From NCBI GenBank assembly GCA_017453365.1, contig JAFTKH010000002.1:1-58333 (forward strand): 58,333 bases of DNA, given 5' to 3'. This DNA comes from Clostridia bacterium (GTDB lineage: Bacteria; Bacillota; Clostridia; Oscillospirales; CAG-272). The notes under the pieces were generated by a model. That model was not told the DNA's origin and did not search any database. It saw only the letters and a program-made list of their open reading frames with translations. Of this stretch, positions 1 to 12,773 are shown in pieces (positions within the stretch are counted from its first letter, which is position 1; every line of letters begins with the position of its first letter). The position numbers were made by a program, and so were the translations under genes.

Positions 1-11
1 TGGTTACAAAC

Positions 12-40
12 TTTTCATTCTCGCGTATCGGATTTATAAT
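12..40 (+). promoter_or_regulatory. Weak candidate promoter upstream of thsB
   Basis: TTTTCA at 12-17 and TATAAT at 35-40 are separated by 17 bases. The -10 box is perfect but the -35 box matches the consensus at only 4 of 6 positions. A transcript from here would have an untranslated leader of about 90 bases before thsB. It is much weaker and more distant than the promoter at the other end of the cassette. No gene is visible in 1-106. Confidence 0.3.
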
Positions 41-106
41 CTATTCCTTTGTAGATTCATCAATACTATTAGCTCTTTTTGTTTTACCAGTTAGTGCTTA
101 GATTTG

Positions 107-141
107 CTCCAAATAACTAACAATTATTTGGAGTATATATG
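107..141 (+). repeat. Left recombination-type site and inverted repeat (IR-L)
   Basis: Bases 111-141 are identical to the reverse complement of 2292-2322 (31 of 31). The core at 107-133 is a recombinase-type palindrome: perfect 10-bp arms CTCCAAATAA and TTATTTGGAG around an asymmetric 7-bp spacer CTAACAA. The inner arm carries the GGAG ribosome binding site of thsB, and the repeat ends exactly at the ATG at 139-141. Inverted copies of a site with an asymmetric spacer would produce inversion of the 2.2 kb between them when recombined. This function is inferred; the repeat itself is seen directly. Confidence 0.9.
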
Positions 142-858
142 AGTATATTTATTTCTTTTTCGGGAATAGCACGACAAGAATTTGCTATAAAATTTTTAGA
201 TTTTTTCAATAGCTACGGATTAAAATGTTGGTATGACCAACACGAATTATATTTAGGTGATGAACTGCATTCAACAATCATCAACAAAGGAATAAATAAA
301 TCAAATTATTGTGTACTAATAATAAATCAGAAATACCTAGACAGCAATTGGCCGTGTGAAGAATCTGATTATTTTTTCCAAAGATATAAAAATGGAGAAG
401 ATATAGTGATATTCCCCATTTTATTGGATATTTCTAAAGAAGATATTGCAAATTCAAGATTAAAATATCTATTGAGTATAAAGTATCAATTCATTCATAC
501 CGGAGATTCTATTGAACAAATTGGATTTCAAATCATTAATCGGATATTTCAAGACAAGAAAAAAGATTGCAAATTTCATACATTTGATGATATGATTGAT
601 TATTTTAAAAGATTGCCAATTACAAACAGTATTGATATATATAATGCATTGATTGCTTTTAATGATTTTGACGAAACGAATTATAGAGATAGAACAATTT
701 TTTTAATTTGCTTGATACGACTGTTCAATAATAATCCATACGAAAAAACAATAAGAAAAATCTCATATATGATATATGAAAACAAAAAAATATCATTCGA
801 TACATATAAAATTATAGAATCAATACTCTTGTTAAGCATTTCCAATTCTTTAGATTAA
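139..858 (+). CDS. thsB: TIR-domain protein, Thoeris ThsB-like
   Basis: A 239-residue protein whose first ~130 residues form a TIR domain: the opening strand IFISFS, the YDQHEL segment after strand B, and S-N-W-P-C-E-E (residues 69-75), where Glu75 fits the catalytic glutamate of TIR NADases. The C-terminal ~100 residues are a helical extension of unknown function. In Thoeris, ThsB senses phage infection and makes a cyclic ADP-ribose-type signal from NAD+ that activates ThsA. The identification rests on the TIR domain and the adjacent SIR2-SLOG gene. The ATG has GGAG five bases upstream, inside the inverted repeat. The gene is AT-rich compared with the aro and pur regions, and its stop codon overlaps that of the opposing thsA. 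Confidence 0.85.
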   Translation: MSIFISFSGIARQEFAIKFLDFFNSYGLKCWYDQHELYLGDELHSTIINKGINKSNYCVLIINQKYLDSNWPCEESDYFFQRYKNGEDIVIFPILLDISKEDIANSRLKYLLSIKYQFIHTGDSIEQIGFQIINRIFQDKKKDCKFHTFDDMIDYFKRLPITNSIDIYNALIAFNDFDETNYRDRTIFLICLIRLFNNNPYEKTIRKISYMIYENKKISFDTYKIIESILLLSISNSLD

Positions 859-2294
859 TCAATAAAAGCTTTGCTAATTTCATCCAATACTTCATCCATG
901 TGCATTCTGCTTGCTAATATAATTTTGTCCACTAACGAAGTGAAAAAGGCTTCATTTGGATTTTCATGTTCAAAACCGATTAACAAGGTTTGGTTCTTAT
1001 ATGAAAAAGAGTTTTTATCCTCTAACTCTAATTCAAATATGCCTTTTGAAATAGAATTATCACCACACGGTATAGGAACAATTATACTATTCACGCTATT
1101 CTTTGCTTCGTAATATTCTTGCCACATACCACCTGTTCGATTGTTTTCTTCATGATCTCCATATAAAAAAATAAAAATTCCAGCCTTACTAACCATGTCT
1201 TTTCTATGTTTCTTGTTTGCTTCAGGACTTGTAAAGGGGAAAGGTTCCATTTGTAAGTATCTGTTAAGATTTTTATTTTCATCACAGCTTTCTTTAATTG
1301 AACCGCAAATAAAATTACCTATGCTCATACCCATTCCAGATATAAATTTAAATGGAAACGCTTTTATATCCATAAAAGCCTTGACAAGCTCTTTACAAAC
1401 TTTTTTCCCAATAGCCTCTTCTTCTGAATGGCGTTCAAAGGATTTTGCACCAGAAATAAAAATTGAGCTGTATTTCACTTTGTTTGAGATACCATATGCA
1501 ATTCTATGTGCATTGCAAGGTTGATCTACCAAAAGGCAATTAACATTATAATGCTTAAGTAAATCAGTCGAAATATAACTTAACTTTTCCTTATTTCGTT
1601 CTGCAATTATTGCATAGTGATTGATGATATAGTTTTCTCGACTATTGTCAATACAATTTAAAATGTCTTTTATACATATTCGCAGAATATCATCATCAAA
1701 CGAGCATCCTATAAACAAAAAGTTGTGGCAAAGGAGTTCTCGCTTCAATAGTATTAGATATGCTTCGTGAGAAGTTCTATAATCAATAAAGTCATTTTTT
1801 GTAATAACAATACTTTCTGGACTTGAGCAAGATCCATTGATCTTAAAAAGGAAGTTTTCATTAGGATATGAAAGACTTTGAAAATCGTTATATTTAAATA
1901 TTGGAATATATTTTTTCCCCTTTTTCCCTAAAACTTTCTCGATTATGAGATCATAGTTTGTAGTCCATATGCTTTTAAATTTAAAATCCAATAAATAGTT
2001 CAAATATGTTTGATTCACGTCAAGTTCTATTGTTTTTGATGTCATTTTTTCACATATTTTTTTCTTGACCTCAATTCCTTTTAATTCAGCATATTGGGCT
2101 TTTTCGGTATTGTTCCAATCGTTACAACCATCGCAGATTTCTTCCATCAATTCTCGCCAACTCATAAAATTATATTGCATAGAGGAGCCTGCTCCAACAA
2201 ACAAACTTAAATTGTTTTGCAATATTTTTTCTGCTACTTGATTAATGAATAATTCTAATTCTATTCGATTCTTTGCATCATAATTTCGTGACAT
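855..2294 (-). CDS. thsA: SIR2-SLOG effector, Thoeris ThsA-like
   Basis: A 479-residue protein, almost exactly the length of Bacillus cereus ThsA. The N-terminal SIR2 domain shows LFVGAGSS (31-38) and TTNYD (111-115, with the expected catalytic Asn113). The C-terminal SLOG domain starts near SIFISGAKS (277-285) and has ISGMGMSIGN (318-327), the nucleotide-binding loop that senses the ThsB-made signal. In the family, activated ThsA destroys NAD+ and stops phage growth. Unusually, residue 153, where the family has its catalytic His (K-x-H-G), is Asn (KINGS, codon AAT). NADase activity is therefore uncertain. The start codon lies in the inverted repeat, with the same GGAG leader as thsB. Confidence 0.88.
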   Translation of the reverse strand: MSRNYDAKNRIELELFINQVAEKILQNNLSLFVGAGSSMQYNFMSWRELMEEICDGCNDWNNTEKAQYAELKGIEVKKKICEKMTSKTIELDVNQTYLNYLLDFKFKSIWTTNYDLIIEKVLGKKGKKYIPIFKYNDFQSLSYPNENFLFKINGSCSSPESIVITKNDFIDYRTSHEAYLILLKRELLCHNFLFIGCSFDDDILRICIKDILNCIDNSRENYIINHYAIIAERNKEKLSYISTDLLKHYNVNCLLVDQPCNAHRIAYGISNKVKYSSIFISGAKSFERHSEEEAIGKKVCKELVKAFMDIKAFPFKFISGMGMSIGNFICGSIKESCDENKNLNRYLQMEPFPFTSPEANKKHRKDMVSKAGIFIFLYGDHEENNRTGGMWQEYYEAKNSVNSIIVPIPCGDNSISKGIFELELEDKNSFSYKNQTLLIGFEHENPNEAFFTSLVDKIILASRMHMDEVLDEISKAFID

Positions 2295-2326
2295 ATATAC
2301 TCCAAATAATTGTTAGTTATTTGCAC
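2292..2326 (-). repeat. Right recombination-type site and inverted repeat (IR-R)
   Basis: Bases 2292-2322 are the exact reverse complement of 111-141. The core site spans 2300-2326: inner arm CTCCAAATAA, spacer TTGTTAG (the left spacer in the opposite orientation), and outer arm TTATTTGCAC, which matches the ideal arm at 8 of 10 positions. On the minus strand it supplies the whole leader, the ribosome binding site and the ATG of thsA. The divergence of the outer arm begins exactly where the repeat ends, as expected if only the interior is exchanged. Confidence 0.88.
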
Positions 2327-2328
2327 CA

Positions 2329-2357
2329 ATTATACCATACTATGATATAATTTTCAA
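2329..2357 (-). promoter_or_regulatory. Strong promoter reading into the invertible cassette
   Basis: On the minus strand TTGAAA (2357-2352) and TATAAT (2334-2329) are 17 bases apart: 5 of 6 and 6 of 6 matches to the sigma-70/sigma-A consensus. Transcription would begin near 2322, the outer edge of the inverted repeat, so the transcript leader is made of the repeat. Whichever gene sits on this side is expressed with an identical leader. The promoter overlaps a TATAAT at 2346-2351 that could serve the divergent recombinase gene. Confidence 0.8.
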
Positions 2358-2386
2358 TGGATTTTGACGATTATTGGAGGAAACTC

Positions 2387-3274
2387 ATGAAAAAACACAT
2401 TTTTCAGTTTTTAAACTACATACAAGCTACTAAAAACTTGTCTACAAAGACATTGGAGGCATATAAAGGGGATCTGCTACAATTCGCAGAATATCAACAC
2501 GAGATACTAGATACGGATGTATGTGAATACATAGCATATTTAAATAAAACATTATCTCTTAAAGACACATCGATTCGCAGAAAAATAGTCACGCTTCAAA
2601 ATTTCTATGATTACCTGGACAGTCAGGGGATTATAGCAAACAATCCCTTTTCCAAGCTCAAATTCAAATTTCGGCAGGAGAGAAGACTTCCAAAAACACT
2701 ATCTATAAACGAAGTATCGAGATTATTGAATTGTTTTGATATTGATTATGATACATTATCTGAGTTTCAAAAGAAACAGCTAATAAGAGATGCTGCCTTA
2801 ATGGATTTGCTTATCAGCACCGGTATACGTATAGGTGAGGCTGCGGCAATTACTCTGGATGATATCATTCCCAACGAAAGAACGATTCTTATTCACGGTA
2901 AAGGACGCAAGCAAAGGCTTATATACATATCATCACCGATAACGTGGGAGAGGCTGTCTGTATTGATAAAAGAGCGAAAGAAAGCTCAAGGGAGCCATAT
3001 TTTTGTTAATCGCAACGGACAACCTATGAGCATCTACGGAATAGAAAATGTGTATCGAAAATACGCTGAAAAAGCAAAAATCAATGTGAAATCTACACCG
3101 CATTATTTAAGGCATACATTTGCTACGAATTTACTTGCAAACGGTGCCGATCTTCGCTCTGTTCAAGAAATTCTTGGACACGCCAGCGTAGCAACTACTC
3201 AGATATATACCGAAGTAACCACCAATCGAAAAAAACAAGTGTTAAAAAAGTTTAACTATCGAAATAAAATATAG
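2387..3274 (+). CDS. Tyrosine recombinase (XerC/D-like), probable cassette invertase
   Basis: A 295-residue site-specific recombinase from the ATG at 2387, which has GGAGG six bases upstream; an in-frame ATG at 2357 lacks such a site. The N-terminal SAM-like core-binding domain is followed by a full catalytic set: Arg in STGIRIGE, Lys in HGKGRKQR, H-Y-L-R-H-T-F, the LGHAS motif, and the nucleophile in QIYTEV. These enzymes cut and rejoin DNA at paired ~10-bp arms around a 6-8 bp spacer, matching the sites at 107-133 and 2300-2326. The gene starts about 60 bases from the right site and shares the AT-rich composition of the cassette. It could instead be a remnant integrase, but adjacency to inverted sites favours an invertase. 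Confidence 0.85.
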   Translation: MKKHIFQFLNYIQATKNLSTKTLEAYKGDLLQFAEYQHEILDTDVCEYIAYLNKTLSLKDTSIRRKIVTLQNFYDYLDSQGIIANNPFSKLKFKFRQERRLPKTLSINEVSRLLNCFDIDYDTLSEFQKKQLIRDAALMDLLISTGIRIGEAAAITLDDIIPNERTILIHGKGRKQRLIYISSPITWERLSVLIKERKKAQGSHIFVNRNGQPMSIYGIENVYRKYAEKAKINVKSTPHYLRHTFATNLLANGADLRSVQEILGHASVATTQIYTEVTTNRKKQVLKKFNYRNKI

Positions 3275-3423: not shown

Positions 3424-4290
3424 TTAAAAGCTCGTTGTTTCTTGAAACTGACATCGTTTCTCATACGGTGTCAGTTTTGTTTTTAGCTGAATCCGTTCAT
3501 AATTGTAGAAATGAATGTATTCACCAAGGAGGAGGCGAGCCTCCTCCTTAGTCGCCGGTGTGTACCGATGAAGCCACTCGGATTTGAGTGTGCTGAAGAA
3601 ATTTTCAGCACAAGCGTTGTCAAGTGGCGTTCCCGGACTTGACATTGATGGCGTTATGTGGTAAGATTTTGTTAGCTTAAAATACCCCTCTGAAGTGTAT
3701 TGAAAGCCTTGGTCACTGTGGAGCTGCAACTCTGCAGTGACCTCTCTTTTTGCAGCCTTAACTGTTTCAAAGACAAGATTGTTATTGTTTTCTGTTCCTA
3801 CTTTGTATGCAACTACAAAATTGTCGTATAAATCCTTGATTACAGACAGATAAACAAATCCCTCTTTCGTTGGTATGTATGAAATGTCCGTACACCATTT
3901 TAGGTTCGGACGCTCGGCATTAAAGTTTCTCTCAAACAAATTGGTGTATTTATGTATGCTCTCGCAGTTCTGTACCCACTTGCGTTTTCTGCGAGATTTA
4001 GAGAGCAAATTGTACTTATTCATTACGCGGAGTACTGCTTTATGGTTCATTACGAGCCCAAATTCACGTAATAACCATATCTGAACACGTCGGTATCCGT
4101 ATGTCTGACGCGTTTTCTTTTGGCAATCTCGTATTAGTTCGCCAATCTGCTTGTCCGGATCTTCTTTGTCTGCTTTTTTCGTCCAAGCATAATAACCGCT
4201 ACGGGATACTCCAAAGAAGATACACATATCTCGCACGTTGTATTTATCTTTGAAACGGTGAATTACTCTATATTTTACGCCGGCTCTCAC
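3424..4290 (-). CDS. IS3-family transposase OrfB (DDE integrase core)
   Basis: A 288-residue transposase subunit. The N-terminal region (YNVRDMCIFFGVSRSGYYAW) is the HTH_21 segment typical of OrfB. The integrase core (rve) follows, with Asp in KWCTDISYIPT, Asp in LHSDQGFQYTS and Glu in NACAENFFSTLKSE completing the DDE triad. The start is a GTG at 4290 that overlaps the TGA of OrfA, so it may be made by translational coupling or, as in other IS3 elements, by -1 frameshifting into an OrfAB fusion. It looks intact. Confidence 0.92.
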   Translation of the reverse strand: MRAGVKYRVIHRFKDKYNVRDMCIFFGVSRSGYYAWTKKADKEDPDKQIGELIRDCQKKTRQTYGYRRVQIWLLREFGLVMNHKAVLRVMNKYNLLSKSRRKRKWVQNCESIHKYTNLFERNFNAERPNLKWCTDISYIPTKEGFVYLSVIKDLYDNFVVAYKVGTENNNNLVFETVKAAKREVTAELQLHSDQGFQYTSEGYFKLTKSYHITPSMSSPGTPLDNACAENFFSTLKSEWLHRYTPATKEEARLLLGEYIHFYNYERIQLKTKLTPYEKRCQFQETTSF

Positions 4291-4577
4291 TTCCTTTCCA
4301 ACTCTCGAAGAAAATTTCGCAGTAGCTCATTTTCCATTTCAAGACGCTTAACTTTTTGCTCTAACTCTTCCGGTTTGTTTGTTGGGCGTCCGCGTTTCAA
4401 TGGTGCAATTTTACGCCTGTTTACCTCCGGTCTGCTTCCACACCATGATTTAGCTGAATATGTACTAATCTTAAATCTGCGTGCTATGCTTTCATAACTT
4501 TCTCCATTTTGATGAGCCTCTATTACCAATGCCTTGAAATTCTCGGGATATGCTGTTCTTCCTTTCTTGTTTCCCAT
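4287..4577 (-). CDS. IS3-family transposase OrfA (HTH_8)
   Basis: A 96-residue DNA-binding subunit. Residues 9-45 form a helix-turn-helix of the transposase-8 type (AYPENFKALVIEAHQNGES...SIARRFKIST), followed by a leucine-rich coiled coil near the C terminus (LEQKVKRLEMENELLRNFLREL) used for dimerisation with OrfB. It binds the terminal repeats during transposition. It begins about 80 bases inside the right end of the element and overlaps OrfB by four bases. Confidence 0.9.
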   Translation of the reverse strand: MGNKKGRTAYPENFKALVIEAHQNGESYESIARRFKISTYSAKSWCGSRPEVNRRKIAPLKRGRPTNKPEELEQKVKRLEMENELLRNFLRELERK

Positions 4578-4687
4578 ACAAAAAACCTCCTGCAGTAGAT
4601 ATTTCTATTCTACTACAAGAGGTTTTTTATTTCAATGTCCGTTTTTACGGGTTCAGTTCATTTGAGCCGTTTTTTATATGTAAGGCA

Positions 4688-5438: not shown

Positions 5439-6629
5439 ATGATTAACCGAAAAGCTGAAAAGCTGGGGCGCGAGCGCTCCGTTATACGAGAAATATTTGA
5501 ATACGGACAAAAGAGAAAGTCGGAGATAGGCGCCGAGCACGTCTATGATTTCTCTCTCGGCAACCCGAGCGTTTCCCCTCCCCCGTCCGTCGACCGCGAG
5601 ATAGTGCGTCTGATTGAGGACGGGCCCTCAACGTCGCTTCACGGCTACACCTCGGCATCGGGAGCTCCCGAAACAAGGCGCGCTATTGCCGAGTATCTGA
5701 CTAGGACGCACGGCTTTTCCGTCAGCGGTGACAGCATCTACGTTACCGTCGGTGCAGCCGCGGCTCTCACCTCTGCTCTCGGAGCTCTCGTGACAAAGGG
5801 TGAAGAGGTTATCGTGCTGGCTCCATACTTTCCTGAATACAAGGTATTTATCGAGAAGAGCGGCGGACGTGCCGTGGAGGTGCCCTCCTGTCCGGATTTC
5901 CAGCCCAATATCGAGGCGATAAAGGAAGCTATAACTCCGCGTACTGCGGCTATAATCGTAAACTCTCCGAACAATCCGAGCGGCGCCGTTATTACTCGCG
6001 AGCGTCTTGAGCAGCTGGCTTCGGTTCTCTCCTCTGCCGAGGCGGAGCTCGGCAAGTCCATTTATCTTATCGCGGACGAGCCCTACCGCGAGCTCGTTTA
6101 CGACGGAGCGGAGGTACCCTTTATTCCGAGCATTTACCGTGACACTGTAGTCTGCTATTCGTTCAGCAAATCCCTTTCCCTTCCCGGAGAGAGGATAGGC
6201 TACGTTCTGGTATCGCCGTCTATCCCCGAGTGCGACTCGGTATTTGCAGCGGTGGCGGGGGCTGCGCGCTCACTCGGATACGTTTGCGCTCCGAGCCTTA
6301 TGCAGCGAATATTGCCAAAGGTGCTCGGCGAGGTATCAGACATCGCGGTATACGATAGAAACAGAAGGCTTCTTCTCTCGGAGCTCTCGTCCTATGGCTT
6401 CGAATGTGTCCCCCCCTCTGGTGCGTTCTATCTGTTTTTAAAATCCCCTGTTCCAGATGCTAATGAATTCGCTATGCGGGCACGGGATTTCGAGCTACTG
6501 CTCGTCCCCTCCGACAGCTTCGGCTGCCCCGGGTACGTCAGGATATCCTACTGTGTTGAGACCGAGGAAATAAAGCGGGCGCTTCCCGCCTTCTCGGCTC
6601 TGGCAAAAAGCTATGGTTTAAAGGGTTAA
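5439..6629 (+). CDS. PLP-dependent class I aminotransferase (probable aromatic aminotransferase)
   Basis: A 396-residue fold-type I aminotransferase. Visible landmarks are NSPNNPSG (PLP contact Asn), IADEPYREL (Asp/Tyr pair contacting the cofactor) and SFSKSLSLPGERIGY, which carries the Schiff-base lysine. It is the first gene of the aro operon, four bases ahead of pheA, so transamination of phenylpyruvate and 4-hydroxyphenylpyruvate to Phe and Tyr is the likely job. On sequence alone an aspartate aminotransferase is equally possible. The start ATG has GAGGAG upstream. Confidence 0.85.
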   Translation: MINRKAEKLGRERSVIREIFEYGQKRKSEIGAEHVYDFSLGNPSVSPPPSVDREIVRLIEDGPSTSLHGYTSASGAPETRRAIAEYLTRTHGFSVSGDSIYVTVGAAAALTSALGALVTKGEEVIVLAPYFPEYKVFIEKSGGRAVEVPSCPDFQPNIEAIKEAITPRTAAIIVNSPNNPSGAVITRERLEQLASVLSSAEAELGKSIYLIADEPYRELVYDGAEVPFIPSIYRDTVVCYSFSKSLSLPGERIGYVLVSPSIPECDSVFAAVAGAARSLGYVCAPSLMQRILPKVLGEVSDIAVYDRNRRLLLSELSSYGFECVPPSGAFYLFLKSPVPDANEFAMRARDFELLLVPSDSFGCPGYVRISYCVETEEIKRALPAFSALAKSYGLKG

Positions 6630-6632
6630 GGT

Positions 6633-7718
6633 ATGAGTAGTCTTAAGGAAGCAAGAGAAATAATAAACAGAGTTGACCGTGAGATGGCAAGTCTTTTCAC
6701 GGAGCGTATGCACGCGGCGGAAATGGTCGCGGAGTACAAGCGCGAGCACGGTCTTTCGATACTCGACCCCGAGCGTGAGCGAGAGGTCATAGCGAGGAAC
6801 TCCGCTCTTATCGAGAATGATGACATACGCGCATATTACGTAAGATTTCTCGAGGACACAATGGCGGTATCGCGAGCCTATCAGTCAAAGATACTCGAGG
6901 GAATGAAGGTTGCATACTCGGGAACCGAGGGTGCTTTTGCACATATTGCCTCCTCGCGTATGTTCCCCAGCGCGAAAAAGATAGCCTACGGAAGCTTCGA
7001 CAGTGCTTATGCCGCCGTGGTATCGGGAGAATGTGACGTAGCAGTTCTGCCTATAGAAAACAGCTACAACGGTGAGGTAGGTCAGGTAACCGACCTTATT
7101 TTCTCGGGACCTCTTTTTGTCAACGGAGTAACCGAGCTCGCGGTAACGCAGGACCTGCTCGGCGTACCGGGCGTCACGCTTTCTGAAATAGAAGAGGTGG
7201 TAAGCCACCCGCAGGCACTCGGTCAGTGCCACGACTACATACTCTCCCACGGCTTCCGTGAGAAGGAATACAGCAATACTGCTCTGGCGGCAAAGCTTGT
7301 AGCGGAAAAGGGCGACAGGACCGTCGCGGCAATCGCGAGCGAGGCGGCGGCAGAAATATACGGGCTCGAGGTCATCGAGCGTAACATAAACGCGAGTGCC
7401 AACAACACAACGCGCTTTGTCATACTCTCGCGCTCGGAAAATAAGGCCTCGGAAAGGCCGGGCAGAATGACCTCTCTCATTCTCTTCACAGTACGAAACG
7501 AGGCGGGAGCGCTCGCACGTGCCATTGACATAATAGGTAAGCACGGCTTTAATATGAGAAGCTTGAGGTCGAGGCCTATGAAGGACCTCCTTTGGCAGTA
7601 TTATTTCTACGTGGAGGCAGAAGGAAGCCTCAACACCGAGGAAGGGCGTCTTATGCTCTCTGAGCTCGAGGAGCACTGCGACAGGCTACGTGTTGCGGGC
7701 TCGTTCATAAAAAATTGA
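6633..7718 (+). CDS. pheA: Bifunctional chorismate mutase / prephenate dehydratase
   Basis: A 361-residue fused enzyme. Residues 1-~85 are an AroQ-type chorismate mutase (REIINRVDREMASLFTERM, with AEYKREHG). Residues ~90-270 are prephenate dehydratase (YSGTEGAFAH near the start; VLPIENSYNGEV; SHPQALGQC; and the NTTRFVILS threonine motif near residue 260). Residues ~280-355 are a C-terminal ACT domain (VRNEAGALARAIDIIGKHGFNM) for phenylalanine feedback. It converts chorismate to phenylpyruvate. It lies between the aminotransferase and aroB in the operon. Confidence 0.95.
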   Translation: MSSLKEAREIINRVDREMASLFTERMHAAEMVAEYKREHGLSILDPEREREVIARNSALIENDDIRAYYVRFLEDTMAVSRAYQSKILEGMKVAYSGTEGAFAHIASSRMFPSAKKIAYGSFDSAYAAVVSGECDVAVLPIENSYNGEVGQVTDLIFSGPLFVNGVTELAVTQDLLGVPGVTLSEIEEVVSHPQALGQCHDYILSHGFREKEYSNTALAAKLVAEKGDRTVAAIASEAAAEIYGLEVIERNINASANNTTRFVILSRSENKASERPGRMTSLILFTVRNEAGALARAIDIIGKHGFNMRSLRSRPMKDLLWQYYFYVEAEGSLNTEEGRLMLSELEEHCDRLRVAGSFIKN

Positions 7719-7733
7719 CAAGGAGCTGGGTCT

Positions 7734-8762
7734 ATGACTACATTACATCTGGAGCTTTCGCCCCACGGCTACGACATAACCGTAGGAGCCGGAGTGCTTC
7801 ACTCTGCGGCGGAGTATTTTAAGCTCGACCGCAAGGTGCTGATAGTTACCGACACGGGTGTGCCGCGCGAATATGCCGAGTGTGTGCTCTCGCAGTGTCG
7901 CGAGGGCAGAATTCTGACAGTACCGGAGGGTGAGGGCTCGAAAAGCACAAGGGGCCTCGAGTCGGTGCTCTCGGCTATGTGCGAGATGAATATGACGAGG
8001 GGTGACTGCGCCGTTGCGGTAGGTGGCGGTGTCGTCGGCGACCTCACGGGCTTCGCTGCGGCGTCGTATATGCGCGGGATAGATTTTTACAACGTTCCCT
8101 CAACCGTGCTCTCGCAGGTAGACTCGTCCATAGGCGGAAAGACCGCTATCAACTTCATGGGCATAAAGAACATTGTAGGCGCGTTTTATCAACCGCGCGC
8201 AGTTCTCATTGACACCGAGCTTCTTTCGACCCTGCCGAAGAGACAGATATCAAACGGACTGGCAGAGGCGGTGAAGATGTCCTTAACCTCTGATGCTGCG
8301 CTGTTCGAGAAATTCGAGTCGCTCTCATTTTCCGAAATACTGAAAAACATCGAGGACGTTATAATATCCTCGCTTAAGATTAAGCGTGGCGTCGTCGAGC
8401 TTGATGAGCGCGAGGGCGGTTTACGTAAGATACTGAATTTCGGTCACACGCTCGGTCACGGAATAGAGGCCGAAGAAGAGATGCGCGGTATGTATCACGG
8501 AGAATGTGTCGCCCTAGGTATGATACCGATGTGCGCTCCCGAGGTTGCAAAAAGGCTCGTCGCGGTGCTGGACAAGCTCGGACTTCCCACAGGATACTGC
8601 GGAAATCTCGACGGAGCTCTGGCCTTCGTCACCCACGACAAGAAGTGCCACGGGGGTAAGGTTTCAGCAATACGCGTCCCCGAGGTCGGAAAATTCGAAA
8701 TCTCGGATATGACGGCTGACGAGTTCGCAGAAACGGTGAAAAACAGCATTTTATGTAAATAA
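7734..8762 (+). CDS. aroB: 3-dehydroquinate synthase
   Basis: A 342-residue cytosolic NAD+- and metal-dependent enzyme that cyclises DAHP to 3-dehydroquinate, the second shikimate step. Motifs seen: VAVGGGVVGDLTGFAAA (NAD-binding glycine-rich stretch), PSTVLSQVDSSIGGKTAIN, a metal-ligand Glu in GLAEAVKMS, and the metal-binding histidines in NFGHTLGHGIE and YHGECVALGM. Length is normal. It has AAGGAG eight bases upstream of the ATG and follows pheA by 15 bases. Confidence 0.96.
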   Translation: MTTLHLELSPHGYDITVGAGVLHSAAEYFKLDRKVLIVTDTGVPREYAECVLSQCREGRILTVPEGEGSKSTRGLESVLSAMCEMNMTRGDCAVAVGGGVVGDLTGFAAASYMRGIDFYNVPSTVLSQVDSSIGGKTAINFMGIKNIVGAFYQPRAVLIDTELLSTLPKRQISNGLAEAVKMSLTSDAALFEKFESLSFSEILKNIEDVIISSLKIKRGVVELDEREGGLRKILNFGHTLGHGIEAEEEMRGMYHGECVALGMIPMCAPEVAKRLVAVLDKLGLPTGYCGNLDGALAFVTHDKKCHGGKVSAIRVPEVGKFEISDMTADEFAETVKNSILCK

Positions 8763-8787
8763 TATTTTACATCAACCGGAGATTATT

Positions 8788-9879
8788 ATGAAAAATACAT
8801 TTGGAAGCAATATTACGGTCACTCTTTTTGGCGAGAGCCACGGAGAGATGATAGGAGCGGTCATTGACGGACTCACACCCGGTATTGTTATAGATGATGA
8901 CTACATAAGGGAGAAGCTTGCGCTTCGCCGTCCCTCGGGAACTATTTCGACGGCAAGGCGTGAGCCCGATGACTACAGAATAGTGAGCGGTGCATTCGGC
9001 GGCTTCACAACCGGAACACCTCTTACGGTGCTGATAGAGAACACTAACACGAAGAGCTCCGATTACGAGAGTCTCCGCTACACTCCCCGCCCCGGCCACG
9101 CAGACTACACTGCGGAATGCAAATATAACGGATATCAGGACAGGCGCGGCGGCGGACATTTCTCCGGCAGGGTCACGGCGGCGCTCGTGGCGGCGGGAGC
9201 CATTATATCATCGGCGCTCGAGGCGAGCGGTGTTATGATAGGAACTCACATATCCTCACTCGGCGGAATATGCGACCGTCCCTTCGCCTGCACCGAGTCG
9301 GATATTGCAATTTTATCGAAGAAGAATTTCCCCGTCATTGACGGTAATGCAGCAGAAAAAATGAGAAAAGCAATCGAGGCTGCCGCAGCCGAGGGGGACA
9401 GCGTCGGCGGTATACTCGAAACGGCTGTAATCGGTCTTCCCGCGGGGCTTGGCGAGCCGTGGTTTGACACTGTCGAGGGTGTTCTTTCCCACGCGCTCTT
9501 CTCCGTTCCCGGTATTAAAGGAATTGAGTTTGGGGCGGGCTTCGGCTTCGCGAATATGAGAGGAAGCGAGGCGAACGACCCCTTCCGCTTCGAGGACGGA
9601 CGCGTAGTTACCGCTACGAACAACAACGGCGGAATCAACGGCGGAATCACAAACGGTATGCCTGTCATCTTCAGGTGCGCGGTAAAGCCTACTCCTTCTA
9701 TCTTCAAGCGGCAGGACACCGTTGACCTCAAGAGCGGAGAGAACACGACGCTCGAGCTTCGGGGCAGGCACGACCCTGCCATAATACACAGAGCGCGCGC
9801 GGTTGTAGACGCTGTGACGGCTATAGCTATTGCAGACCTTCTTGCCTCACGATACGGCTCGGGCTGCCTCGGTGATTGA
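8788..9879 (+). CDS. aroC: Chorismate synthase
   Basis: A 363-residue FMN-dependent lyase that makes chorismate from EPSP, the last common step. It opens with the family signature (NTFGSNITVTLFGESHGEMIG) and shows RRPSG, RPGHADYT, DRRGGGHFSGR with the catalytic His region, the ATNNNGGINGGITNG loop and RHDP near the C terminus. The length is typical. Its stop codon precedes the aroE-aroK ATG by two bases. Confidence 0.96.
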   Translation: MKNTFGSNITVTLFGESHGEMIGAVIDGLTPGIVIDDDYIREKLALRRPSGTISTARREPDDYRIVSGAFGGFTTGTPLTVLIENTNTKSSDYESLRYTPRPGHADYTAECKYNGYQDRRGGGHFSGRVTAALVAAGAIISSALEASGVMIGTHISSLGGICDRPFACTESDIAILSKKNFPVIDGNAAEKMRKAIEAAAAEGDSVGGILETAVIGLPAGLGEPWFDTVEGVLSHALFSVPGIKGIEFGAGFGFANMRGSEANDPFRFEDGRVVTATNNNGGINGGITNGMPVIFRCAVKPTPSIFKRQDTVDLKSGENTTLELRGRHDPAIIHRARAVVDAVTAIAIADLLASRYGSGCLGD

Positions 9880-9881
9880 CT

Positions 9882-11117
9882 ATGAGATACGGACTTATTG
9901 GTGAAAAGCTCGGTCACAGCTTCTCGCGCCTTATACATACAGAGCTCACGTCCGACCCCTACGAGCTTCGGGAGATACCGAGGGAGAATGTGGACGGCTT
10001 CATCAAGTCGCGCGATTTTCTCGGTATCAACGTAACAATTCCCTACAAGGAAACCGTTATCCCACATCTTGATTTTATCGACCCCGTAGCGGAGCGCATA
10101 GGTGCTGTCAACACTGTCGTAAACCGCGAGGGCAAGCTTTTCGGCTACAACACAGACGCATACGGTCTCGCCGCTCTTATCCGCCATATCGGACTCGAGC
10201 TATCCGGCGCGACGGTTGCAATTCTGGGCACGGGCGGTACGTCGAAGACGGCGAGAGCTGTAGCGGAGTCGCTGGGTGCAGCAGAAATACTTACGGTATC
10301 GCGCACTGCGCGGGGCGGAGCTATCACGTACGATGAGCTTTATGCCGATGCAGAGCGTGTCAACGTAATCATAAACACCACTCCCGTAGGAATGTTTCCA
10401 AACACGGAGAGCTCGCCTCTTGATATATCTGCCTTCCCTGCCCTCACCGGCGTTGCTGACGCGGTATACAATCCCTTAAGGACACGCCTCGTCCTCGCGG
10501 CGAGAGAGAGGGGTGTAGCCGCAGAGGGCGGCTTATATATGCTGGTAGCGCAGGGTGTGCGTGCCTCGGAGATTTTTCATAATACAAGCTATCCTGCGGG
10601 CACTGTCGAGCGGATATACAAAAAACTCCTTCGCAGTATAGAAAACGTCGTGCTTATAGGTATGCCGTCGTCGGGCAAGAGCTCGGTCGGACGAGCGCTC
10701 GCGAAGCTTCTTTCACGTGAGTTTACCGACACGGACGTGCTGATAAGGGAGCGCGCGGGCACGGATATACCCGCGATATTCGCGGAACACGGCGAGGAAT
10801 ATTTCCGCTCGCTCGAGAGCGAGATTATAAGAGAGGTGTCGAAATTGTCGGGCAAGGTAATAGCAACGGGCGGCGGTGCCGTGCTTCGCACCGAAAACGT
10901 CTCTGCACTCCGTGCGAACGGACGACTCTTTTTCCTCGACAGACCTCTATCGCTTCTCACCCCGACGGGCGACCGTCCCCTATCGCGCGACACAGCGGCG
11001 ATAGAGAAAAGATATAACGAGAGATATCCCATATACTCGTCGGTATGCGACGAACGAATAGACGGCTCGGGCAGTGTCGACGACGTTGCGCGGCTTATCA
11101 CGGAGAATTTGAAATGA
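9882..11117 (+). CDS. aroE-aroK: Shikimate dehydrogenase - shikimate kinase fusion
   Basis: A single 411-residue polypeptide with two enzymes. Residues ~1-245 are AroE: GLIGEKLGHSFS, NVTIPYKETV with the catalytic Lys, NTDAYG, the NADP fold ILGTGGTSKTA and a YNPLRTRL motif. Residues ~250-411 are AroK: Walker A GMPSSGKSS, DTDVLIRE, and ATGGGAVLR. Together they convert 3-dehydroshikimate to shikimate 3-phosphate. ATG 9882 is preferred because it is followed immediately by the family start and has GGTGA upstream. The fusion means the two steps have fixed stoichiometry. The end overlaps aroQ by four bases. Confidence 0.94.
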   Translation: MRYGLIGEKLGHSFSRLIHTELTSDPYELREIPRENVDGFIKSRDFLGINVTIPYKETVIPHLDFIDPVAERIGAVNTVVNREGKLFGYNTDAYGLAALIRHIGLELSGATVAILGTGGTSKTARAVAESLGAAEILTVSRTARGGAITYDELYADAERVNVIINTTPVGMFPNTESSPLDISAFPALTGVADAVYNPLRTRLVLAARERGVAAEGGLYMLVAQGVRASEIFHNTSYPAGTVERIYKKLLRSIENVVLIGMPSSGKSSVGRALAKLLSREFTDTDVLIRERAGTDIPAIFAEHGEEYFRSLESEIIREVSKLSGKVIATGGGAVLRTENVSALRANGRLFFLDRPLSLLTPTGDRPLSRDTAAIEKRYNERYPIYSSVCDERIDGSGSVDDVARLITENLK

Positions 11118-11554
11118 AGATTTACGTAATAAACGGTCCAAATCTCAATATGCTCGGCATAAGAGAGCCCGGTCACTACGGTCGGGCAAGCTACGGCGAG
11201 GTTGAGAGAATGATAGAGGAGCACTGCCGTGCGAAGGACGTTGTGCCCGTAATATACCAGTCCAACCACGAGGGCGCACTCGTCGACAAGATACAGGAGG
11301 CATTCTTCGAGGGTGCTGACGGTATAGTTATAAATCCCGGTGCATACACCCACACGAGCATAGCAATTCTCGACGCGGTGAAGGCAACTATGCTCCCCAC
11401 GGTCGAGATACATATATCGAAGGTCGAGGAACGTGAGGCCTACAGGCAAATAAGCTACGTAAGAGAGGCCTGCATCGGAACGGTAACAGGCCGCGGCATC
11501 GACGGCTACAAGGATGCTATCGACCTGCTTATCGACCATATAAGACAAGGATAG
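11114..11554 (+). CDS. aroQ: 3-dehydroquinate dehydratase, type II
   Basis: A 146-residue type II dehydroquinase, the small flavodoxin-like dodecameric class unrelated to AroD. Seen: INGPNLNMLGIREPGHYG (active-site loop with catalytic Arg and Tyr), YQSNHEGALVDKIQEA, INPGAYTHTS and VEIHISKVEERE. It dehydrates 3-dehydroquinate, the third step of the pathway. The ATG overlaps the aroE-aroK stop in an ATGA, so translation is probably coupled. Confidence 0.96.
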   Translation: MKIYVINGPNLNMLGIREPGHYGRASYGEVERMIEEHCRAKDVVPVIYQSNHEGALVDKIQEAFFEGADGIVINPGAYTHTSIAILDAVKATMLPTVEIHISKVEEREAYRQISYVREACIGTVTGRGIDGYKDAIDLLIDHIRQG

Positions 11555-11558
11555 TAAC

Positions 11559-12773
11559 ATGATAGTAAAAATAGAAAAAGGGACGGCACGGGGTAAGGTA
11601 ACGGCACCGCCGTCTAAATCCATGGCTCACAGGCTCGTTATCTCTGCGGCTATGTGCCGCGGTGAGAGCAGAATTCGCGGCATATCCGACTGTGAGGACG
11701 TGAGGGCGACTGTCACCTGTCTTACCGCGCTCGGCGTTTCCGTCGTGCGCGAGGGTGATGACCTCGTAGTTGTGGGAACGGATATGACCTCGACGGCGCC
11801 GAACGGAGTTCTAGACGCGGGTGAGAGCGGCAGTACGCTTCGGTTTCTCATTCCCGTAGCTATGCTTTCCGGCAAAACGGTTATGTTCCGCGGAAAAGAG
11901 GGTCTTATGAGAAGGCCTATGGACGTATATGAAAGACTAGCGAGCGAGCGTGGACTCGTCTTTCTAGGGGACGGTGAGAGCATTACCGTAAGAGGACGTC
12001 TTCCAAGCGGTGAATATCACGTCGTCGGAAACGTCAGCAGTCAATTTATATCAGGTCTGCTCTTTGCCCTGCCCACCCTCGAGGGGGACAGCAGGATAAG
12101 GATAACGCCGCCTATAGAGAGCCGCTCATATATAGAAATGACACTCGCGGCGATAAGACTTTTCGGCATTCGGGCCGAATGGGAAGGCGAGCATACGATA
12201 TTCATCCCGGGCGGGCAGCATTACACTGCCGCCGACGTTACTGTCGAGGGCGACTATTCGGGTGCTGCGTTCACTGATGCGTTCAACATACTCTCGGGCG
12301 AGGTATCGGTGCTCGGGCTTAATCCCGACAGCATTCAGGGAGATAAGGTTTACAAAAAATATTATGAGATGTTAGACTCGGGCATACCGACGGTACACAT
12401 CGGTGACTGTCCCGACCTCGGTCCCATTCTCTTCGCTCTCGCGGCGGCGAAGCGCGGCGGTGTATTTACAGGAACAAAGCGGCTCAAAATAAAGGAGAGC
12501 GACAGAGCGGAGGCTATGGCAGAGGAGCTGAAAAAGTTCGGCGTTACGGTCAGTGTATATGAGGACAAGACGGTGGTTTATCCCGTAAGGTTCGAGCCGC
12601 CGACAGAGAGGCTACACGGCCATAACGACCATAGGATAGTAATGTCTCTCGCAATCCTTCTCACCCTCGTTGGCGGTGAGATTGAGGGGGCGGAGGCTAT
12701 AAGCAAGAGCTATCCGCAATTTTTCTCCGACTTAAGAAAGCTGGGTATCGGGGTGACGGAATATGAGATTTGA
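11559..12773 (+). CDS. aroA: EPSP synthase (3-phosphoshikimate 1-carboxyvinyltransferase)
   Basis: A 404-residue enzyme joining shikimate 3-phosphate and PEP. It has the PPSKSMAHRLVISAAM motif with the S3P-binding Lys/Ser, DAGESGSTLRFLIP (a variant of the LGNAGTxxR loop), FRGKEGLMRRPM (where most enzymes have G-x-x-R-P), VSSQFISGLLFALP, and a C-terminal NDHRIVMSLAI. The GESGSTLRF loop is closer to glyphosate-tolerant class II type than to the E. coli NAGTA loop, a point seen in the sequence but not tested. It overlaps tyrA by 11 bases. Confidence 0.95.
   Translation: MIVKIEKGTARGKVTAPPSKSMAHRLVISAAMCRGESRIRGISDCEDVRATVTCLTALGVSVVREGDDLVVVGTDMTSTAPNGVLDAGESGSTLRFLIPVAMLSGKTVMFRGKEGLMRRPMDVYERLASERGLVFLGDGESITVRGRLPSGEYHVVGNVSSQFISGLLFALPTLEGDSRIRITPPIESRSYIEMTLAAIRLFGIRAEWEGEHTIFIPGGQHYTAADVTVEGDYSGAAFTDAFNILSGEVSVLGLNPDSIQGDKVYKKYYEMLDSGIPTVHIGDCPDLGPILFALAAAKRGGVFTGTKRLKIKESDRAEAMAEELKKFGVTVSVYEDKTVVYPVRFEPPTERLHGHNDHRIVMSLAILLTLVGGEIEGAEAISKSYPQFFSDLRKLGIGVTEYEI

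Follow-up and report, generated by a model that had tools for sequence, protein, structure and literature searches.

Within the first 3.3 kb of a contig from Clostridia bacterium (assembly GCA_017453365.1, contig JAFTKH010000002.1, positions 1 to 58,333 of the forward strand; this whole stretch of 58,333 nucleotides is termed the window), two convergent genes resembling those of the Thoeris defence system lie between inverted copies of a putative recombination site, next to a gene for a tyrosine recombinase. We propose, with a probability of about 0.72, that this cassette is a recombinase-driven gene selector, in which the segment between the sites would invert and a single promoter outside it would serve one gene at a time. 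The proposal draws on the sites and their spacers, on promoters predicted beside them, on related cassettes in other genomes, and on the positions at which contigs end. Taken as a family, such cassettes are very probably invertible and inverting. The cassette in the window comprises the following features.

139..858, + strand: thsB-like gene for a TIR protein of 239 residues, with Glu at the catalytic position (domain and alignment evidence)
855..2294, - strand: gene for a ThsA-like SIR2-STALD protein of 479 residues, with Asn replacing His152 of BcThsA (domain and alignment evidence)
110..141, + strand: left exact copy of the inverted repeat, with the GGAG ribosome-binding site and ATG of thsB (repeat comparison)
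2292..2323, - strand: right exact copy of the inverted repeat, with the ribosome-binding site and ATG of thsA (repeat comparison)
107..133, + strand: left recombination site, with 10-bp arms and the 7-bp core CTAACAA (by sequence; core conserved in relatives)
2300..2326, - strand: right recombination site (by sequence)
2387..3274, + strand: gene for a XerC/XerD-like tyrosine recombinase of 295 residues, in an open frame from 2357 (domain search, alignment and motifs)
2329..2357, - strand: predicted fixed promoter directed into the segment, with -35 TTGAAA (2357-2352), 17 bp, and a TG-extended -10 TATAAT (2334-2329) (by sequence)
2346..2351, + strand: predicted -10 element TGATATAAT of the divergent recombinase promoter, beside the -35 of the cassette promoter (by sequence)

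A Thoeris-like gene pair

As the first-pass annotation of this DNA had described, a thsB (TIR) and a thsA (SIR2) gene face each other inside the inverted repeat, at 139-858 and 855-2294, and their 3' ends overlap by 4 bp. The product of the former matches Pfam TIR_2 (2.7e-15) and, weakly, PADLOC ThsB (2.4e-11), the latter match being outscored by that to candidate family PDC-S66 (2.8e-21); the product of the latter matches PADLOC ThsA (6.4e-65) and Pfam SIR2_2 and STALD. The pair therefore has the ThsA with SIR2 and STALD/SLOG domains and the ThsB with a TIR domain that define Thoeris, but its ThsA lacks the complete SIR2 NADase active site that is also part of the definition (Asn112 and His152 of BcThsA). 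Substitution of either residue in BcThsA (N112A, H152A) is reported to abolish NAD cleavage, the His mutant also having disturbed oligomers (PMC7272460). In the window ThsA the Asn is kept, in the motif TTNYD, and the His is replaced by Asn, in KINGS. None of the four ThsA proteins found in cassettes of this kind, one of them truncated by a contig end and one split, has the His. At its position the split ThsA of locus L007 has Gly, and the others (window, L007 and L010-left) have Asn. The His is kept in all four ThsA proteins from other loci of the relatives and in two aligned solved ThsA structures, and the window TIR protein keeps the Glu that aligns with TIR NADases. The window ThsA may thus be a poor NADase or work otherwise, and because the equivalent of His152 is lost we term the system Thoeris-like, not proven Thoeris.

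Inverted sites and their spacers

The exact inverted repeat, annotated at first pass as 31 bp long, is one base longer (32 bp; 110-141 and 2292-2323). It extends to 43 bp at 91% identity (99-141/2292-2334) and is the longest among the inverted pairs listed in the first 6 kb; at other single-contig loci, the exact repeats measured are 18-38 nt long. Each copy comprises most of a 27-bp site together with a ribosome-binding site and a start codon, and since these last two sit inside the repeat the leader is identical for both genes. The recombinase-like cores were also correctly annotated, with perfect arms at 107-133 and, reading inward from 2326, 8/10 matches in the outer arm of the right copy. 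The segment is thus flanked by inverted sites that share a core, as in inversion switches of the Xer type.

To gauge the specificity of the conserved core, expressed as the degenerate pattern AATAACTNNNAATTATT, its matches were compared with those of the reversed pattern. Among the 22 genomes reached via the recombinase there were 21 exact matches versus one for the reversed control. The excess was small in wider sets (38 versus 18 in 396 genomes of the order of genome G202; 12 versus 6 in 196 genomes of the window's family), so that lone matches without a recombinase are often background. Order-wide matches, at 38 places in 30 of the 396 genomes, were therefore used only if paired with a site of the same spacer or located at a contig end. 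Sites in G735, G848, G661, G793, G713 and G905 were retained as cassettes; those in G666, G868, G872 and G928 (several matches, with differing spacers or no close inverted partner) were left as background, as were 10 matches in other genomes of the window's family.

Within the core, a variable 3-bp spacer is identical in the two copies at all 10 two-site loci, seven of them on one contig (the window, L005, L007, L010, L011, G269 and G735) and three on two contigs (G201, G198 and G848). This count includes G735 and G848, two loci taken from the site search in part because their spacers matched. Eight different triplets occur, and 0 of 200,000 permutations kept all pairs matched. Cassettes within one genome differ in triplet (AGG, GAC and TCA in G199; ATT and TAC in G201) and should therefore stay apart. 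Such a pattern would be expected if the spacer lies in a crossover region that needs a match within the pair.

The adjoining recombinase

Just outside the right repeat lies the tyrosine recombinase that the first-pass annotation had credited with a catalytic set. Its motifs include Arg, Lys, HxxR, His and Tyr, and within them lie the residues that we take to be catalytic. Residues 15-295 align with solved XerD, and the protein resembles XerC/XerD while scoring below the curated cut-offs of those models. Its start is likely at 2387, where GGAGG precedes the ATG of a 295-residue frame, rather than at 2357. Searches for close relatives gave 30 pattern matches and no confirmed one in viral contigs, none in phages at 1e-60, and a single relative in plasmids, at 42.9% identity.

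A single predicted promoter beside the cassette

From the position of the predicted cassette promoter, transcription would be expected to start near 2322, inside the right site. When the 90 nt beyond each site were scored for their best hit, 11 of 14 recombinase-side flanks had a -35/-10 pair at -34 to -36, its elements 17 bp apart, and 11 left flanks had nothing above shuffles. A scan of 300 nt, at a threshold set after that scoring was seen, found the promoter in 11 of 13 right flanks of the divergent layout, the window included, and no inward promoter in any of 13 left flanks (110 nt in the case of the window). Three of these left flanks, in G197, G347 and G793, belong to single sites that were assigned to the left for want of a visible recombinase. 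In L055, scanned later, the threshold was just reached, at -31 from its repeat. One fixed outside promoter, with the sites in the leader, is the arrangement of the Vpma switch discussed below, here recognized by sequence.

These results depart from the first-pass annotation, which had a pair of fixed outside promoters between which the genes exchange places: one strong promoter is predicted on the recombinase side and none was seen in the left flanks scanned. Inversion should therefore select one gene rather than swap two expressed genes, and probably only the gene adjoining the recombinase, thsA or thsB but not both, is transcribed. Among Thoeris-like cassettes the promoter-proximal gene is that of ThsA in the window and L007 and that of the TIR protein in L010-left; elsewhere it encodes a large partner protein (L005, L010, L055) or, as judged by reading, an ATP-grasp protein (G201 C4 and L050, the latter with one recognisable site only). 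This difference is across species, and so supports switching without showing it.

In the window (2329-2357) and in relatives, the predicted cassette and recombinase promoters overlap in a near-palindromic divergent promoter. With the -10 of one beside the -35 of the other, the two should exclude each other, an overlap that might couple expression and switching. By eye, a terminator-like hairpin separates the recombinase from the site in G713.

Contig ends and the two orientations

Evidence on orientation was drawn from the contig ends of assemblies. By our reasoning, a de Bruijn assembly should pass unbroken through any repeat shorter than k if the sample contains a single orientation; where both are present, breaks should be located at the repeat's inner edge, or k nucleotides beyond its outer edge. 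Usual values of k in SPAdes are 55 and 77, and these are presumably the k of the relatives' assemblies. The left-flank and recombinase-side contigs of G201, C30 and C4, enter the same gene start and have exactly 77 nt in common, at the end of which C4 stops. For G198, C14 extends exactly 55 nt beyond the outer edge of the repeat, and C25 stops 32 nt beyond that edge, at the ATG, with 32 nt matching C14. Of the two contigs in G848, C56 runs on for exactly 55 nt beyond the outer edge, and C27 for 27 shared nt. The first 55 nt of C21 in G269 are exactly its own right flank plus repeat, and C16 of G793 begins 55 nt from the outer edge of the core. Contigs of L013, L051, G713 and G905 start no more than a few bases from the core, consistent with the inner edge.

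In the window contig itself, exactly 141 nt precede the inner edge of the repeat. Nine end pairs in its assembly (38 contigs, 76 ends), some round the same junction, share exactly 141 nt, and 13 further pairs share 68, 91, 110, 125 or 140 nt; 141 is the overlap length of this assembly. The ends in G201, G198, G848 and G269 point strongly to the occurrence of both orientations in the relatives' assemblies, and the left end of the window contig suggests both in the window's source, where the other orientation may be rare or in the minority, since the right junction is unbroken. Of the earlier claim that the cassette flips, one part is therefore retained: repeat and contig ends indicate a segment built to invert and probably doing so. 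The part that had it flip between two outside promoters is not.

Cassettes in related genomes

A scan of genome contigs yielded 19 loci with a relative of the recombinase, and a family-wide search around one of these (E up to 1e-100) found it in 18 of 398 genomes. We examined 24 recombinases: the window's, 14 from the 19 scanned loci (L018-L022, partial or distant, being excluded) and nine others (a partial match in G208, from the family-wide search, was also excluded). One, L012, could not be scored, its contig beginning too near the recombinase. The first-pass annotation had proposed looking in relatives for the recombinase next to inverted TIR or SIR2 genes, and had held that homologues consistently without the repeat would refute inversion. 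Recombinase and repeat do occur together in many relatives (14 of 23 scorable recombinases, window included), and the repeat is missing nearby in the other nine, which goes part of the way towards that refutation. Among the 14, the repeat of L055 differs in sequence and the cassette of L054 lies on the opposite side of the recombinase. A separate clade of recombinases lacking the repeat was considered and is not supported: rows with and without a site are interspersed, and the label clusters no more tightly than when shuffled (6 changes versus a shuffled mean of 7.3; 96 of 500 shuffles had as few).

Two inverted copies lie on one contig in the window, L005, L007, L010, L011, L054, L055 and G735, with convergent genes that start at the sites. 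The genes are Thoeris-like in the window and L007. L005 and L010 encode a protein resembling D-Ala-D-Ala ligase, or weakly ATP-grasp, with a large partner; L054 and L055 an ATP-grasp-like protein with a large partner, from translations read by eye; and L011 and G735 an SHMT-like protein with a large partner. TIR and SIR2-STALD proteins are paired three times among the cassettes. The first-pass annotation had also raised the possibility of a shufflon with further cassettes left of base 1, which is not supported: each of the eight single-contig cassettes has two matching sites, and only two matches to the core occur in the window's genome as assembled, which is 52% complete and in which this contig starts at base 1.

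PADLOC gave no convincing match for the ATP-grasp or SHMT-like pairs tested (L054 and L055 were outside the scan), and these pairs are possible undescribed defence systems. Convergent pairs of an enzyme and a large protein recur at L005:862-4188, L010:4141-6820, L011:4009-7906 and L202:2344-6100. In L007 (1181-2391), upstream of the TIR gene, a ThsA is split into two overlapping frames, a SIR2 half and a STALD half, and shares the invertible segment with a second, intact ThsA. L010:2-1930 is the end of a second Thoeris-like cassette, which has a site (spacer TCA) and a promoter of its own but no recombinase at that place; the ATP-grasp cassette, which has one, lies about 2.2 kb away.

Other sites have defence genes nearby. 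A co-directional Thoeris system and an FRG-domain protein lie near the site in G201 C30; of contigs C56 and C27 of G848 (L203/L204), both ending at a site, one carries AbiL-like genes and the other a CBASS cyclase and HsdM of type I restriction; a PNP-STALD protein occurs in G793, and a PDC-M12B candidate in L011.

Surroundings of the cassette in the window

Features flanking the cassette are listed below.

1..101, + strand: possible truncated upstream frame with a hydrophobic C-terminus (by sequence; the contig opens at base 1)
3424-4577: IS3-type element directly downstream of the recombinase, in two overlapping frames, the larger with an rve integrase domain

Beyond these, 5439-12773 holds an aromatic amino acid biosynthesis cluster, identified from translations (aminotransferase, chorismate mutase/prephenate dehydratase, DHQ synthase, chorismate synthase, shikimate genes and EPSP synthase). 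The G+C content is 30.7% in the first 3.3 kb versus 50.9% beyond position 4600, and within the family of the window genome ThsA occurs in one of 196 genomes and the recombinase in two, its own genome counted. By this low G+C content and rarity the cassette looks recently acquired.

A proposed gene selector and its alternatives

In the mechanism that we propose, a tyrosine recombinase, presumably the adjoining one, would invert the segment of about 2.2 kb between the two inverted sites. Transcription would begin inside the right-hand site, with leader, ribosome-binding site and ATG constant for whichever gene adjoins, and the left side would be silent. In the orientation shown, thsA would be on and thsB antisense; inverted, thsB would be on and thsA antisense. 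The use that we prefer is that Thoeris would be kept as two halves that are not co-transcribed: a cell would contain both proteins only if its lineage had flipped within the last few generations, or if its chromosome copies differ, and immunity would be a bet-hedged, transient state that limits self-harm. More tentatively, such cassettes may form a general class of invertible two-gene immune systems in gut Clostridia, used for Thoeris and at least two further pairs (ATP-grasp or SHMT-like, each with a large partner), in which the flip would be the arming step, both proteins would be confined to lineages with a recent inversion, and immunity would be timed by the recombinase and heritable but transient; this joint claim we hold as possible yet doubtful.

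Several observations weigh against the selector. The promoter is missing from its usual place in L005 and L006 of the divergent layout, and from all six right flanks of other layout (0/6), in which the recombinase reads toward the site (G848, G713, G269) or none is seen (G735, G661, G905); the threshold of that scan was, moreover, set late. The window frame ending at 101 reads toward the left site and could give read-through, nine of 23 scorable recombinases have no repeat nearby, and the cassettes of G735 and L010-left have no visible adjoining recombinase. Among the contig ends, the k of 55 and 77 is our assumption for those assemblies; a native repeat of at least 55 nt in G269 or at least 77 nt in G201 would leave the same footprint; contigs of L015, L004 and G661 have ends at distances (66 nt from the core edge, against an expected 77; 90 nt; 79 nt) that fit no confirmable k; and in the window contig the repeat coincides with a break at the left end only, assembly having run through the right junction. 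Finally, ThsA and ThsB are both reported to be required in Thoeris of B. cereus (PMC7272460), so that exclusive expression would be paradoxical unless the proteins persist.

The genes might instead encode alternative single effectors, a TIR protein in one state and, in the other, a SIR2-STALD protein that has no NADase activity, a reading that we judge on balance unlikely. The loss of the catalytic His in all four cassette ThsA proteins, as against its presence in all four from other loci, favours it, as does a promoter adjoining one gene only. The same partners are nevertheless found repeatedly (three pairs of TIR and SIR2-STALD; ATP-grasp and a large protein in L005, L010, L054 and L055; an SHMT-like protein and a large one in L011 and G735), and this recurrence indicates joint function; the SLOG part of ThsA is also reported to bind the TIR-made signal (PMC10022894).

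Alternatively, the segment might invert with both genes always expressed, the proximal one from the right-hand promoter and the distal one by read-through from the left, so that inversion would alter only the ratio of ThsA to ThsB. Frames that point into or toward a site lend this some weight: the one ending at 101, just ahead of the left site, points into thsB, as do a PNP-STALD gene into the site of G793 C16 and a 450-residue frame toward that of G198 C25. It is made quite unlikely by the 13 left flanks without an inward promoter above threshold, by the nearest large left frame, which faces away from the site in L007, L010, G201 and G848, and by terminator-like hairpins ahead of the left site in G201, G198 and G197.

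We regard as improbable a static relic, an old repeat with nothing inverting in the window strain: the nine recombinases without a repeat and the unbroken right junction would suit it, but exact repeats, spacer identity within loci, three intact reading frames and exact contig-end distances would not. Least probable is an integron-like system of mobile cassettes with inversion as a side effect, for although differing gene pairs between one kind of site, the low G+C of the first 3.3 kb and the rarity of ThsA (1/196) and recombinase (2/196) in the family would agree with it, sites in two-site loci are inverted and not direct, so that their usual geometry gives inversion rather than excision, spacers that differ between loci would hinder exchange, promoter and leader are placed as for a switch, and no cassette arrays were seen.

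If the proposed selector is correct, it would separate two proteins that are toxic together and give a population rare armed cells, and would be a natural device for making two genes mutually exclusive, by means of one promoter, a constant leader and differing spacers. Site and recombinase together also offer a handle for finding new defence pairs: in relatives they frame pairs without a convincing PADLOC match, and some sites adjoin AbiL, CBASS, type I restriction or canonical Thoeris genes.

Relation to known systems

Phase variation of restriction systems is known, and at the hsdS loci of type I restriction an inversion by a tyrosine recombinase acts on a defence system. There, inversion alters the target specificity of one subunit, whereas the window system would choose whole genes. 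The first-pass annotation knew of no description of Thoeris under recombinase-driven phase variation; in the open-licence PMC literature we likewise found no invertible Thoeris, nor a recombinase choosing between sensor and effector of a two-part immune system, although a paper elsewhere could exist.

As described for E. coli, inversion driven by the recombinase PinQ affects phage sensitivity, and recombinases are reported to be often beside defence genes, with function unknown (PMC12529663). PinQ differs in being a serine recombinase that, in that account, acts on phage adsorption and not on intracellular defence. With Thoeris as described (PMC7272460, PMC10022894) the window shares a TIR protein and a SIR2-STALD protein, the latter with a strong PADLOC ThsA match. 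The canonical copy in G201 C30 is co-directional, whereas the window genes are convergent, lie in an invertible segment and include a ThsA without an equivalent of His152.

In mechanism, the proposed selector is closest to the Vpma switch of Mycoplasma agalactiae, where, as reported, the recombinase Xer1 lies beside the locus, the sites are in 5' leaders just upstream of start codons, and one unique promoter expresses the gene brought next to it (PMC2268961). The likeness extends to an adjoining Xer-like recombinase, sites in the leader, a single predicted promoter and a proximal gene that would be on. In the Vpma locus as described there, however, six related surface-protein genes are mutual alternatives, whereas the window would alternate two differing partners in defence between two sites only.

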